DNA from: Methylomarinovum caldicuralii | GTDB taxonomy: Bacteria > Pseudomonadota > Gammaproteobacteria > Methylococcales > Methylothermaceae | NCBI RefSeq assembly: GCF_033126985.1 | Contig: NZ_AP024714.1 | Span: 2,310,990-2,374,989 of the forward strand | DNA length: 64,000 nt | Reading direction: 5' to 3' | In this document: positions 7,359-59,945 of the stretch, in pieces | How the letters are laid out: every line of letters begins with the position of its first letter | Numbering within the stretch: the stretch's first letter is position 1 | The notes under the pieces: generated by a model | Databases searched by the model: none | Seen by the model: the letters and a program-made list of their open reading frames with translations, nothing else | What the model was told of the DNA's origin: nothing | Translations under genes and position numbers: made by a program

Positions 7359-9254
<1,896 letters not shown>

Positions 9255-9968
9255 TCACTTTTCTCCCTGCTGAACCTCCCCACGCCTAAAGGCGGGGGTT
9301 CTGGCGGGAACCACCGCCGCCTCTCTTCCATCCCTTCCGGGAATGGAAGCCTCGGCTTTGGCTGTCCCACCTTCCCCGGACGACCCGCTCCGCCTCCGAA
9401 AAGCCCCGAAGGTGGCAGGAACCTTGCCCCTGCCATTGCAGGTTGCCTGCCTCCACGCCGCCCGGAGGAGCGGTTCCGCAGCCGGCCAGCGTTTACGTGC
9501 CAGCCCCACGTGGAGGTCCTCTCCCTCAACGCAGCGGGCCAGAAACGCGCTGTACAAATCGCGTTGCATCACCACGCCACACCCACAGGCATGGATGCGT
9601 TGGGAGAGGGGCTTTTTATGCCTCGACCCGCAGTGGCACACCTGGCTCAAACAGGTGGTGCGGGTCGGAAATTCCACCAGCTTCCCGACAGCACTTTCAG
9701 CCTTGCGGTTCAGCAGGTTCAGAAACATGGACGGCGCCCGGTCGCGGATGCTGCGGCCATACCGCTTCTGCAGCGCCCGGTAGCTGAACAACGCCTGCCA
9801 ATCCTCGGAGGACTGCATCCGGTCCAGCCGCCGCAGGGTTTCCCCCAGGCAGGCGTTGTACACCTGCCGGGCCGCCTCGAAGCGGGCCTTCAACGTGCGA
9901 TCCGCCGCTCCATCGACCCGAAGGGGCAGTTCCAACACGAACGAGGGCGATTGGCTGCGCTTGGACAT
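9255..9968 (-). pseudogene. Internally deleted TnpB (IS200/IS605-type) protein
   Basis: The N-terminus (start chosen at MSKRSQSPSF) resembles the opening of IS200/IS605 OrfB/TnpB proteins. After about 75 residues it jumps in frame to the TnpB C-terminal part (SYRALQKRYGRS, EFPTRTT, a CxC...CxC zinc-finger region, then QRDLYSAFLARCV). The whole central RuvC core with the first catalytic aspartate, and the region of the catalytic glutamate, are missing. Intact relatives are normally 350-500 residues. The product cannot be a working RNA-guided nuclease. It is most simply a decaying transposon gene that happens to stay open. Confidence 0.8.
9277..9300. repeat. IS200/IS605-type end hairpin, argB side
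   Basis: A 24-base sequence (starting TCCCCACGCCT) folds into a CGCCT/AGGCG hairpin extended by C/G runs. It matches the copy at 10004-10027 at 22 of 24 positions in direct orientation. Confidence 0.75.
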
Positions 9969-9986
9969 AGCGATAGTATACACCCG

Positions 9987-12437
9987 CTACAGAGCGCCGC
10001 TTATCCCCACGCCTGAAGGCGGGGGCTTGCGCGGCGCAATTTGGTCAAATGGCAACGGCAGCGCCAGTTCGATGGTTTCGAACCAATCCCGGAAACGTCC
10101 CTGGATGCGTTCCAGCGCCACGGTATCGTCGGCCTCGAAACGGAATTGCAGCGCCGGCCGGGCATAGGCCGCCCGCACCGCCCCCCAGCCGCTGGCGAAA
10201 TCGATGCGCACCCCGAAACTGGCATCGACCTTGGCATCATCGAAGCACCTGTCCGCCGTCTGCTGGAGCAGCTTCAGCGTGCGCTCGGTTTCCTCCAGCG
10301 ATTCCAACGGGGTCTCCAGATAAGGACTGACGACGCTCTGGGACAGTTCGGCGAAGAGCTCGTCCGAAGCCAGGGGATCGGCCGAGAGCACTTCCACCAG
10401 CCGGGCAGCGCCATAGATGGCGTCGTCGCTGCCGATCCAGCGTTCCCGGAACCACAGATGGCCGCTGAAGCCGCCCCCCAGCGCCGCCCCGCTTTCCTGC
10501 AGCTTGGCCTGCAGCCGGCACGGCAGGGGCGATGCCGTCACCGGCCGGCCGCCGTGCTGAACCACGTAGCGGGAGGCATGGCGGCTGCACTCGGTGTCGA
10601 CCACGATATCGCTGCCCGGCTCCCGCGACAACACGTCCCCCGCCAGCAGCATCAGCACCCGGTCGGCGGGCACCCAGCGCCCCCGGGCGTCAACCACCGC
10701 CAGTCGGTCACCGTCGGCATCGAACGCCAGCCCCAGTTCGGCCTCCGCGTCGGCCGCCACCCGCTGTCCCAGCGCCGCAAGCGCGCCCTGTCGGGCCGGG
10801 TCGAACAGTCCCTCGCTGCGGATTTCCTCCACCTCGCACCCCAGGGTGCGCAACAGGGCGGTCACCGTCTCGCCGACGGTGCCGATACCGAGATCGACGA
10901 TGACCTTGAGCGGCCGCCCGAGCTGGACGTCGTCCATCACCGCGCCGATGTAGTCGGCCAGCAGGTCACGGCTTTCCACCTGTCCCATCCCGCTGGCGAA
11001 CTGTCCTTCCGCCAGACGCTGCCGCAGTTCCGCAAGACGCTTGCCGGACCATCTCTCCCCGGCGATGGTCAGCTTGAGGCCGCCGTATTCCAGGGGGCAG
11101 CTCCCGCCCGTGACCACCAGGCCGGAACGGACGTTGAGATAATGACAGCCGAAGTGGACCAGGGGAGCGGGAACGGCATCGAGGTCGATGACATCCCGGC
11201 CGCTGGCGCGCAACCCCTCGATGAGGGCGGCAGCCAGCGCCTCGCTGCCCTCACGCCGGTCCCGCCCCACCACCACGGCCTGCTCGCCCTGGGCCTGGAT
11301 TTCGGTGCCGATCGCCTGGCCAAGGGCCTGAAATGCCTCCACCGGCAGTTCCGCAAACGGCGCCCTGAGGTCGCAGGGTTGGAAAACACGCTTTGCGGGA
11401 ACGTGGATGGTGGTCTCGGACACCGCCACATCCCCGGATCCGGTACTGTCTGCACTTGCCTCTCCGGTAGTGGAATTGGTTTGCGTTTTTCGCTCGACTT
11501 CCCGACGCAACGCCTCATCTTCCTCCTTGAGCTCCACACGGTCGACGGGAGGCGACAAAAGCAGCAATCGGTCGATCAATGGCTGCAGTTCTTTAGCCTT
11601 GAGCGGATAGAACTCCTGCCGTTTCCCCAAACGCCAGTCGTCGATGAAACGCAGTAGTATGTCCACATCCGCTTGTAACGATCGGGTGATCCAGCGCCAT
11701 CCCAAATAGCCGATCAATGCAATGACCGCCATCGCCACACCCCAGAAAGCCAGCGCGTAAACCGGATTTGGAGCTGTCCAGACAGGCCAGTAAACAACCT
11801 CCCATTCCGTCCCCACCACCGGAAACCGGCTGCCTGGCTTCATAGCTTTGAGCGCAATATCACCCCGAAACGCCAGCATCGCTTGGCCTTGCATCAGGGC
11901 GTAGGCGCCGGCAGGCGGCGGTGTCAGAGCGCGCTGCAGCCATTTCGGGTCCAGCGCCACCAGCAGCACCGCCAACACCTGGTCGCCGCTGCGGATCGCG
12001 CGGGCGAGGGCCAGATGCCGCTCTGGAGTGCCGAGACCGTGCATCGCCAATGGTGGGGTGGCGCTCACGGCCCGCTGGGCCAGGTCCAGATCGGCGAAAC
12101 TGAGCGCGCCCTGGCCGGCATCGCTGCCGGCGGGAAGCAGACGCACCCACAGGGCGTCCGGGAGCATCCGCTGCAACCGGACTTCGATGGCCTCCCAGGG
12201 CTGCTGGACTAGTTCGGTTTCCCAGCGGGGATCGCGCGCCAGGGCATCGACCAGCTGCTGCATGCCCTCGGCCCGGGCGCCGACTTGGGCGGCAACCGCC
12301 TTGGCGTAGGCGGCCCAGTGCGATGCCCGATCTTCCTGGGCCTGGCGCCAGGAGAGGACATACACCCCGCCCACCGCCAGCGTCAGCGCCAGCACGGCGA
12401 CGACGAGGAGGACGATCAACCAGCGTGCCAGACTCAT
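9987..12437 (-). CDS. algC: AlgC-like phosphohexomutase pseudoenzyme with membrane/periplasmic N-terminus
   Basis: I chose the ATG at 12437, 2 bp after the dut stop, giving 816 residues. A membrane helix (about 5-28), a periplasmic region of about 190 residues and a second helix precede a phosphomannomutase/phosphoglucomutase fold. The dut-algC-argB context matches pseudomonad algC. The active site is degenerate: the phosphoserine loop TGSHNP reads TGGSCP, so the catalytic Ser is Gly. The sugar loop GEMSGH reads GGFSGH. The phosphate loop RASNTTP reads RAAYARP. Only the metal loop (FDADGDR) is near normal. Catalysis is unlikely. The last 14 or so residues come from a transposon end. Confidence 0.88.
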   Translation of the reverse strand: MSLARWLIVLLVVAVLALTLAVGGVYVLSWRQAQEDRASHWAAYAKAVAAQVGARAEGMQQLVDALARDPRWETELVQQPWEAIEVRLQRMLPDALWVRLLPAGSDAGQGALSFADLDLAQRAVSATPPLAMHGLGTPERHLALARAIRSGDQVLAVLLVALDPKWLQRALTPPPAGAYALMQGQAMLAFRGDIALKAMKPGSRFPVVGTEWEVVYWPVWTAPNPVYALAFWGVAMAVIALIGYLGWRWITRSLQADVDILLRFIDDWRLGKRQEFYPLKAKELQPLIDRLLLLSPPVDRVELKEEDEALRREVERKTQTNSTTGEASADSTGSGDVAVSETTIHVPAKRVFQPCDLRAPFAELPVEAFQALGQAIGTEIQAQGEQAVVVGRDRREGSEALAAALIEGLRASGRDVIDLDAVPAPLVHFGCHYLNVRSGLVVTGGSCPLEYGGLKLTIAGERWSGKRLAELRQRLAEGQFASGMGQVESRDLLADYIGAVMDDVQLGRPLKVIVDLGIGTVGETVTALLRTLGCEVEEIRSEGLFDPARQGALAALGQRVAADAEAELGLAFDADGDRLAVVDARGRWVPADRVLMLLAGDVLSREPGSDIVVDTECSRHASRYVVQHGGRPVTASPLPCRLQAKLQESGAALGGGFSGHLWFRERWIGSDDAIYGAARLVEVLSADPLASDELFAELSQSVVSPYLETPLESLEETERTLKLLQQTADRCFDDAKVDASFGVRIDFASGWGAVRAAYARPALQFRFEADDTVALERIQGRFRDWFETIELALPLPFDQIAPRKPPPSGVGISGAL
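10004..10027. repeat. IS200/IS605-type end hairpin, algC side
   Basis: This is the second copy of the 24-base hairpin sequence. Read on the minus strand it forms part of the last codons of the algC-like gene, whose stop lies just beyond it at 9987-9989. Confidence 0.75.
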
Positions 12438-12439
12438 GG

Positions 12440-12898
12440 TCAGTGCCGCCCGGTGTGCCCGAAACCGCCGCCACCGCGCCGGCTGGGGGGAAAGTCGGTG
12501 ACGGTTTCGAACGCCACCTGCACCACCGGCACGAACACCATCTGGGCGATGCGCTCTCCCACCTCGATGGTGAAGGGCTCGGAACCCCGGTTCCAGCACG
12601 ACACCATCACTTCGCCCTGATAGTCGGAATCGATCAGCCCCACGAGATTGCCGAGGACGATGCCGTGCCTGTGGCCGAGGCCGGAACGGGGCAGCAGCAC
12701 CGCTGCCAGGGAGGGATCGCCGATATGAATGGCCAGCCCAGTGGGGATCAAGGCAGTTTCCCCGGGTGCCAGGGTCAGCGGCGCCTGCAGACAGGCCCGC
12801 AGATCCAGCCCGGCCGCCCCCTCGGTGGCGTAGTGCGGCAGGGGGATCTCCCGCCCCAGACGGTCATCGAGAATTTTCAGTTGAATTTTCTTGTCCAT
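12440..12898 (-). CDS. dut: dUTP diphosphatase
   Basis: Dut hydrolyses dUTP to dUMP, keeping uracil out of DNA and feeding thymidylate synthesis. At 152 residues it is a standard trimeric dUTPase with all motifs: [32 protein letters not shown] and the C-terminal glycine-rich [12 protein letters not shown] arm that closes over the substrate. Its start overlaps the 3' end of coaBC by 35 bp, and the algC-like gene begins 2 bp after it. Confidence 0.97.
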
Positions 12899-14084
12899 AA
12901 CGTTCGCCGATCAAGGTTATCAGTCGCCGGGCCAGCTCCCGCTTGGAGGCCGTGCCCAAATCCCGTTCCCCGCCGGGCCACAATACCCACAGGGTGTTGT
13001 CGTCCCGGTCGAATCCCTGACTGGGCCCGACCGGATTGGCGGCGATCAGATCCAATCCCTTGCGCGCCAGCTTGTCACGGGCGTACTCCCGCACCCGCTC
13101 GGTTTCGGCGGCGAAACCGACAGTGAAAGGGCGCGGTCGATGGCCGGCGACCGCGGCCAGAATGTCGGGGGTCCTGACCAGTTCCAGCTGCAGCCGGTCG
13201 CGGTGCTTCTTGATCTTCTGCCCCGCCGCCGTCACCGGCGTGTAATCGGCCACCGCCGCCGCGCCGATGAAAACGTCGCAGTCGGTTACCTGCGCCATTA
13301 CCTGGGCATACATCTGCGCCGCGCTTTCCACCGCGACCACCTCGACACCGGCCGGCGGAGTCAGAGACACCGGGCCGCTCACCAGCACCACCTCGGCCCC
13401 GGCCTCCCGGGCGGCCCAGGCCAGAGCGTAGCCCATCTTGCCGGAGCTGCGATTGCTGAGGAAACGCACCGGATCGATGGCCTCGCGGGTCGGGCCGGCG
13501 GTGATCAACACCCGCCTGCCGGCCAGGGCACCGTTGCGGCGGGCGCCGAGACGGGCGAGAATCTCCGCCGGCTCCAGCATCCGTCCCGGTCCTTCCTCGC
13601 CACAAGCCTGGCCGCCGCTGGCCGGGCCCCAGACTTCGACGCCCCGCTGCCGCAGCACGGCGATGTTTTCCCGGGTCGCCGGATGCTGCCACATGACCCG
13701 GTTCATCGCCGGCACCACGGCGATGGGCGCTTCGGTCGCCAGGCACAGGGTGGCCAAAAGATCATCGGCCATCCCTGCTTTGAGTCTAGCCAGAAAATCG
13801 GCGCTCGCCGGGGCGATCACCACCTGTTCGGCCCAGCGCGCCAGTTCGATGTGCCCCATGGCCGCCTCCGCCCGGGAGTCGAACAGGCCGGTCCGCACCG
13901 GCCGCCCCGACAGGGCCTGCAGGGTCAACGGGGTGATGAAGCGGGTGGCAGCTTCGGTCATCACCACCTGGACCTCGGCGCCGGCCTGCCGCAGCAGCCG
14001 CACCAGCTCGGCGGCCTTGTAGGCGGCGATGCCGCCGCTGATGCCGAGCAGGATCCGGCGCCGGGACAGCGTTTGAAATTCCAT
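12864..14084 (-). CDS. coaBC: Bifunctional phosphopantothenoylcysteine synthetase/decarboxylase
   Basis: CoaBC joins cysteine to 4'-phosphopantothenate and decarboxylates the product in coenzyme A synthesis. The N-terminal flavoprotein (CoaC, about 1-190) has [16 protein letters not shown], the PASADF flavin motif and the conserved Cys in GGQACGEEG. The C-terminal CoaB part has [13 protein letters not shown]. It is 406 residues, the usual length. It is divergent from radC with only 15 bp between the two start codons. Confidence 0.96.
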
Positions 14085-59341: not shown

Positions 59342-59945
59342 CTGTCCCTCCGAAAGCCCCATCGTCCGACCTGCCGCTTCCCTCCATCGGGTCCCTTGGG
59401 GCAGGTTCCCCGACTTCTCAGGTACTATCAGCAGGCTCCGATTGCTCGATCACCTTCCCAGCGCGCTTCGTCGCCTTCGCGCGCCGGTACCCTGCTTCGT
59501 GTCCCGTTCGCTCCCATCGGCCGGACACCGCTCCGATGGGCCTGGACCTTTTCTCACACGGCGCCCGCACCGCTCTTCCCGCAGGGAGTGTTCGAGCCCT
59601 CCCAGGTTCCTGGGCGACCCTTGCCCTGCATGCCCCGCTCTTCGACCCCGGCGGAGGGGTGATGCCAGGCCAGTACAGCACCACCCCTGTTGCCTTCCGT
59701 CCGTTCAACAACGTCGGCTCCGCATTCCGTACTTTCGAGGCTCCATCACGCGGCCTACAGGCCCCCTGTGTACGCTTCGCAGTCGGGATCGCTCCTCGAC
59801 CACGCAACACTCGGTTCCGGCTGGTGGCCAGCCTTGGCCGGACAGGACTTGCACCTGTCAGGTCGCTCTGAAGGTTTCAGCGATGTCTTTCCTTCTACAT
59901 AACTTCCTCCTTCTCCAGGCTTGGCCTGGCGCAATGAACGGTAAC

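Follow-up and report, generated by a model that had tools for sequence, protein, structure and literature searches.

A degenerate AlgC of Methylomarinovum caldicuralii as a probable membrane-anchored pseudo-phosphohexomutase

Alginate, LPS and other polysaccharides of Pseudomonas and related bacteria share one gateway enzyme, AlgC. Its counterpart in the methane-oxidizing bacterium Methylomarinovum caldicuralii, encoded in the 64,000-nucleotide stretch of contig NZ_AP024714.1 analysed here (the window), has lost the catalytic serine, and its gene is still an open reading frame. Why is such a gene kept? Has its chemistry been lost or only changed? Which enzyme does the work of a phosphohexomutase in this cell? 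What would the remaining protein do?

The gene, its locus and its active site

The algC-type gene occupies positions 9987-12437 on the minus strand, where all the other window features given below also lie. In the window's reading frames it starts with an ATG at 12435-12437 and runs through 816 codons without an internal stop, and its C-terminal 450 residues, the mutase part, match P. aeruginosa PMM/PGM with an E value of 1e-93 in phmmer. Locus comparison identifies dut (12440-12898) and coaBC (12864-14084) as conserved upstream neighbours and argB (8343-9254) as a conserved downstream neighbour; the order coaBC-dut-algC-argB is common to genomes with intact copies and to those with degenerate ("dead", as defined below) copies. 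The gene is the true AlgC orthologue at this locus. The Pseudomonas algC locus is of the same dut-argB type, and the Pseudomonas genomes examined likewise contain long AlgC genes (about 799 aa) that include a membrane module.

The surroundings have some peculiarities of their own. A 242-aa frame at 9255-9983, between algC and argB, resembles an internally deleted TnpB: a TnpB-like N-terminal start is fused to a zinc-finger/TNB end (Pfam PF07282, PHROG transposase 506) without the central RuvC part. A DNA search of the genome found no second full copy of it, and the sister species lacks it and has algC and argB directly adjacent. In the congeneric genome G001, a one-base shift around codon 101 breaks argB (L036, 8364-9264) in two, perhaps through an assembly error. 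The dut gene next to algC in L175, L234, L244 and L245 is about 50% identical to that of the window, as against 71-97% elsewhere, which suggests replacement in place. Far from this locus, the window contains a group II intron catalytic core at 59636-59851 (Rfam RF02005, 152 bits).

The first-pass annotation, aligning by eye, had described a mutase with altered active-site loops, and alignment to P. aeruginosa PMM/PGM bears out the three motifs that it read. The phosphoserine loop TGSHNP has become TGGSCP (11094-11111; S108G, H109S, N110C), so that the catalytic serine is indeed lost; the sugar loop GEMSGH is GGFSGH (10458-10475; E325G), and the phosphate loop RASNTTP is RAAYARP (10155-10175; S423A, N424Y, T425A). 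In addition, DVKCTR reads DTECSR (10581-10598; K285E). Two further regions had been called missing, which holds for KTGHSL, now SPLPCR (10515-10532; H308P), and only in part for HHPDP: a 7-residue deletion in the VDGNFPNHHPDP loop (FPNHH) leaves GLFDP, with the DP still present. The frame, the 816-residue architecture and the metal loop, DADGDR (10704-10721), have been kept, as had been claimed.

To score these changes we chose 21 positions that we take to be catalytic or substrate-binding, in P. aeruginosa numbering. The window's gene differs from P. aeruginosa PMM/PGM at 12 of them, the phosphoserine included (Y17C, S108G, H109S, N110C, K285E, T306P, G307L, H308P, E325G, S423A, N424Y and T425A), and agrees at the metal triad (three Asp), R247, K118, R20, S327, H329 and R421. 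As to features of active enzymes, it lacks the T[GA]SHNP phosphoserine, the Glu of GEMSGH, RxSNTxP and KTGHS, and has the metal loop DGDGDR in the form DADGDR. If the active site of PMM/PGM is divided into four loops (PMC5570346), key residues are lost in three, the metal loop being the exception. Since this loop and K118 are kept, some binding of phosphate or metal may persist. Intact homologues are far more uniform: with the congeneric L036 set aside, 79 named gammaproteobacterial genes, which had been chosen by conserved patterns and are all intact, show 0-2 changes, and the 71 intact genes of the order also show 0-2, apart from one with 3 (L168, a fragment without six of the 21 positions, was counted with its gaps left aside).

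Was the loss directed at the active site, as the first-pass annotation had it? In the window's gene the enrichment is marginal: among positions with 97% or more conservation across the intact homologues, 12 of 21 catalytic and 45 of 121 other positions are changed (p=0.096), the contrast being weakened by these many changes outside the active site. In several less diverged dead copies from other genomes the targeting is clear (G033, p=0.0004; G094, p=0.0001; G150, p=0.0003). Active-site loss would thus have come first and broader drift afterwards.

Predicted fold and membrane module

The AF2 model of the protein (pLDDT 87) has a fully mutase-like dead domain with the four-domain phosphohexomutase fold. 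This pseudo-phosphohexomutase domain, residues 346-797 (10047-11402), superimposes on P. aeruginosa AlgC (1pcj) with Z 51.5 and an rmsd of 1.4 Å over 450 residues, and Pfam PGM_PMM_I-III all score above cut-off. The fold is thus orthologous over the whole mutase domain (38% identity), metal loop included; what separates the two proteins is the absence here of the phosphoserine, K285, H308, E325 and the phosphate loop. The solved AlgC structures that we found (PDB 1K35, 1PCJ) comprise the mutase domain only.

The N-terminal part is a membrane module, in which, by hydropathy and the AF2 model, two TM helices flank an alpha/beta domain and are followed by a helical segment and a disordered linker. 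TM helix 1 spans residues 1-31 by hydropathy (12345-12437; the AF2 model has a helix at 3-67). The extracytoplasmic domain, residues 32-223 (11769-12344), is alpha/beta in the model and weakly Cache-like. TM helix 2, residues 224-247 (11697-11768), is supported by both hydropathy and the model. Residues 248-295 (11553-11696) form a segment, with modelled helices at 225-269 and 282-294, that we read as HAMP-like, and residues 296-345 (11403-11552) the linker, with pLDDT below 50 over 296-336.

What kind of module is this? The window's own module gave no significant Pfam or PDB match in sequence searches; its single-sequence model is poor (pLDDT 53), and a structural search with the full model returned the mutase part only. 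In its family, dCache_1 matches 3 of 25 members (best 4.9e-7), and a search with the family profile gives weak hits to PctC, PctA and DcuS (E values of 0.1-0.4); one row of the 25-row alignment is wrongly cut and carries an unrelated glycosyltransferase match. The Cache sensors PctA, PctC and DcuS share the layout of TM helix, extracytoplasmic alpha/beta domain, TM helix and helical segment, with weak profile similarity below curated thresholds, but their output is a kinase, cyclase or MCP domain, unlike the dead mutase fold here. A Cache-type sensor is our best guess for the module.

Recurrence in the genus and the order

Dead versions, with 10-15 of the 21 positions changed, are present in 8 of 10 congeneric genomes. 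The first-pass annotation had proposed a search of close relatives for the same substitutions, and these were found in the sister species. Eight species, with identities as low as about 45%, have the dead state in common, which is therefore old in the genus. The two remaining genomes, G002 and G006, have nearly intact genes, with Ser-His-Asn, K285, E325 and the phosphate loop kept and the KTGHS and FPNHH loops lost, a state that looks like an early stage of loss.

For the order, AlgC-type genes were located by an alignment-based scan of genome contigs, and a gene was called dead when at least four of the 21 positions were changed. By this measure 22 of 93 AlgC-type genes are dead. A tree calculated after removal of the catalytic columns requires six or more changes to account for the dead state, on well supported branches. 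In the most degenerate copies seen, L146 and L147 (genomes G011 and G018), 16 of 21 positions differ, and the metal loop is among the parts affected (DTEGTG, DAEATS).

Which enzyme takes the place of the dead one? That a true mutase must be encoded elsewhere had been anticipated, and the genome does encode intact GlmM, alpha-Pgm and P0002, a TGSHIP-type phosphohexomutase; pmoB adjoins glmM. P0002 (568 aa; TGSHIP, TDGDSDRP, EANGG) is related to PDB 4hjh, an entry that one of its fields names phosphomannomutase and a different one phosphoglucomutase, and TGSHIP, TDGDxDR and EANGGF are present in every complete P0002-type copy checked. A ManC/ManA-type enzyme, which requires mannose-1-phosphate, is also intact, so that mannose-1-phosphate is presumably made and used in the host.

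Each of the 22 dead genes comes from a genome that encodes a P0002-type mutase (15 of the full-length kind, 7 of the shorter kind), and none of the 42 AlgC-type genes in genomes without one is dead. The Fisher p value for this association, 1.5e-7, ignores relatedness and is inflated because the sequences are related; an independent-pair test gave only 2-3 informative pairs in the expected direction and none in the opposite one (p 0.25). For these two reasons the link between a dead AlgC and a second mutase is consistent but not proved.

The membrane module also stands alone. In 15 genomes (G032, G035 and 13 further ones that were checked) a module of 343-391 aa without the mutase domain lies beside dut. 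It is directly followed by argB in 13 of them; of the other two, one reaches a contig end and the other gave no match to argB in the stretch. P0002-type matches are absent from G032 and G035, which do carry separate mutase homologues of 467-486 aa. Many stand-alone modules (L227, L228, L239-L249) have an acidic C-terminal tail, such as DDDDFDIEGLFDE or DDNFDLDDLFDDF, which is possibly a docking motif. A further arrangement is seen in one genus, in G091, G097, G191 and G195 (the last three being L214, L210 and L207): an extra AlgC membrane module of 313-338 aa, without a mutase, lies in tandem directly upstream of a complete AlgC.

Selection, alternative readings and the probable role

The dN/dS of the mutase domain in genus pairs is 0.17 (window's gene and sister species), 0.18 and 0.08, and in other dead pairs 0.21, 0.10, 0.09, 0.14 and 0.14; intact pairs give 0.03-0.12. 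Control genes in the comparison of the window with its sister species give 0.09 (argB), 0.06 (dut) and 0.28 (coaBC). The dead mutase domains are under purifying selection that is somewhat relaxed yet strong. Together with the losses in three of four loops, the dead copies in most congeners and the mutase-like predicted fold, this supports the pseudoenzyme that the first-pass annotation had suggested. We consider it probable that the AlgC of the window is a conserved pseudoenzyme, whose mutase domain has lost hexose-phosphate interconversion and is retained as the cytoplasmic portion of a membrane receptor with two TM helices, probably of the Cache type. The same annotation had pictured a periplasmic N-terminus and a dead mutase as a sensor or scaffold: the architecture stands, with two TM helices, an alpha/beta domain and a module able to occur alone, and from it we infer the sensing or scaffolding role.

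Does selection act on the dead domain itself, or could the membrane module alone matter, with the mutase domain a passive tail in the course of being lost? The 15 genomes in which this locus encodes the module but no mutase domain fit such a tail. However, in every dead pair measured dN/dS is lower in the mutase domain than in its own N-terminal membrane half, which would not be the case for a passive tail, and we regard this reading as unlikely.

We give still less weight to the reading that the chemistry has changed rather than vanished. The serine has in effect moved by one residue (H109S), and with the metal triad and K118 it could form a phospho-acceptor or hydrolase site, making the protein a sensor of phosphorylation state or a new phosphatase. 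All eight dead genus members have Ser109 and keep D242, D244, R247 and K118; D246 is kept in six of the eight and thus lost in two, and K285, E325, N424, T425 and H308 are all gone in the window's protein. In other dead lineages residue 109 is mostly D, N, G, Q, R or T, so Ser109 is at best a genus feature, and a Ser in the phosphoserine loop could be drift. This proposal is improbable.

Neutral decay of a redundant gene that will soon be lost would account for those P0002-type genomes in which a long AlgC match is absent (G039, G054 and G062, for example). It is largely refuted, and very improbable: none of the 22 dead genes of the order has a broken frame, dN/dS values fall far short of 1, the genes keep their locus, and the dead state has a long history. 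A sequencing or assembly artefact is refuted, as the sister species, whose protein is 88% identical, has the same substitutions and the host genome is a single contig of 2,694,844 bases.

The conserved pseudoenzyme could have arisen as follows. P0002, a further phosphohexomutase, and Pgm are both intact in this genome; these would have assumed the catalytic work, freeing the active site of AlgC. The active site degenerated, while the frame, the locus, purifying selection and, by prediction, the fold persisted. Selection would now maintain another function, sensing of an extracytoplasmic signal and/or docking of a partner at the inner membrane, for which polysaccharide or envelope synthesis would be the most natural context to guess. 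Active long AlgC proteins probably share this non-enzymatic function, which the window's gene would unmask. That the gene stays under selection though dead, and does so independently several times in the order, points to a second role of AlgC besides that of an enzyme.

Two known systems offer parallels. Vertebrate PGM5 (aciculin) is an inactive phosphoglucomutase retained for a non-enzymatic role (PMC7761743), and the mutase fold is likewise kept here, with the inactivity of PGM5 being a lack of measurable activity and that of the window's protein a prediction. PGM5, however, is an extra paralogue without a membrane module, and it has retained TASH and the ability to bind substrate, whereas here the orthologue itself is dead. 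Since, unlike in PGM5, most sugar and phosphate contacts are gone, the sequence favours scaffolding over metabolite sensing for the dead domain. GlmM docks on the membrane cyclase CdaA and inhibits it (PMC8573169; PDB 7OLH, 7OJS), a precedent for regulation by docking in which a phosphohexomutase fold is a protein partner at the membrane, but GlmM remains catalytically active and has no membrane anchor of its own. We found no paper in the open-access literature that assigns a function to the N-terminal module of AlgC or describes a bacterial pseudo-PMM.

What emerges is a recurrent, membrane-anchored bacterial pseudo-phosphohexomutase, which extends to more than one gene. A broader picture is possible, though short of probable: long-form AlgC may generally be bifunctional, a Cache-type membrane receptor with a mutase fold as its output, and in methanotrophs (which we take to mean the order Methylococcales) the catalytic half may have been repeatedly inactivated or removed after a further phosphohexomutase had become available, so that what remains is a receptor signalling or scaffolding through a dead enzyme or through the module alone. 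The natural series of intact, half-dead and dead copies and of those with the domain missing provides material for studying how an enzyme becomes a pseudoenzyme. As AlgC has repeatedly become a dead but selected membrane protein, and the enzyme half alone is absent in 15 genomes, the neglected membrane module is indicated to have a function of its own, and a testable prediction follows for active AlgC proteins elsewhere.
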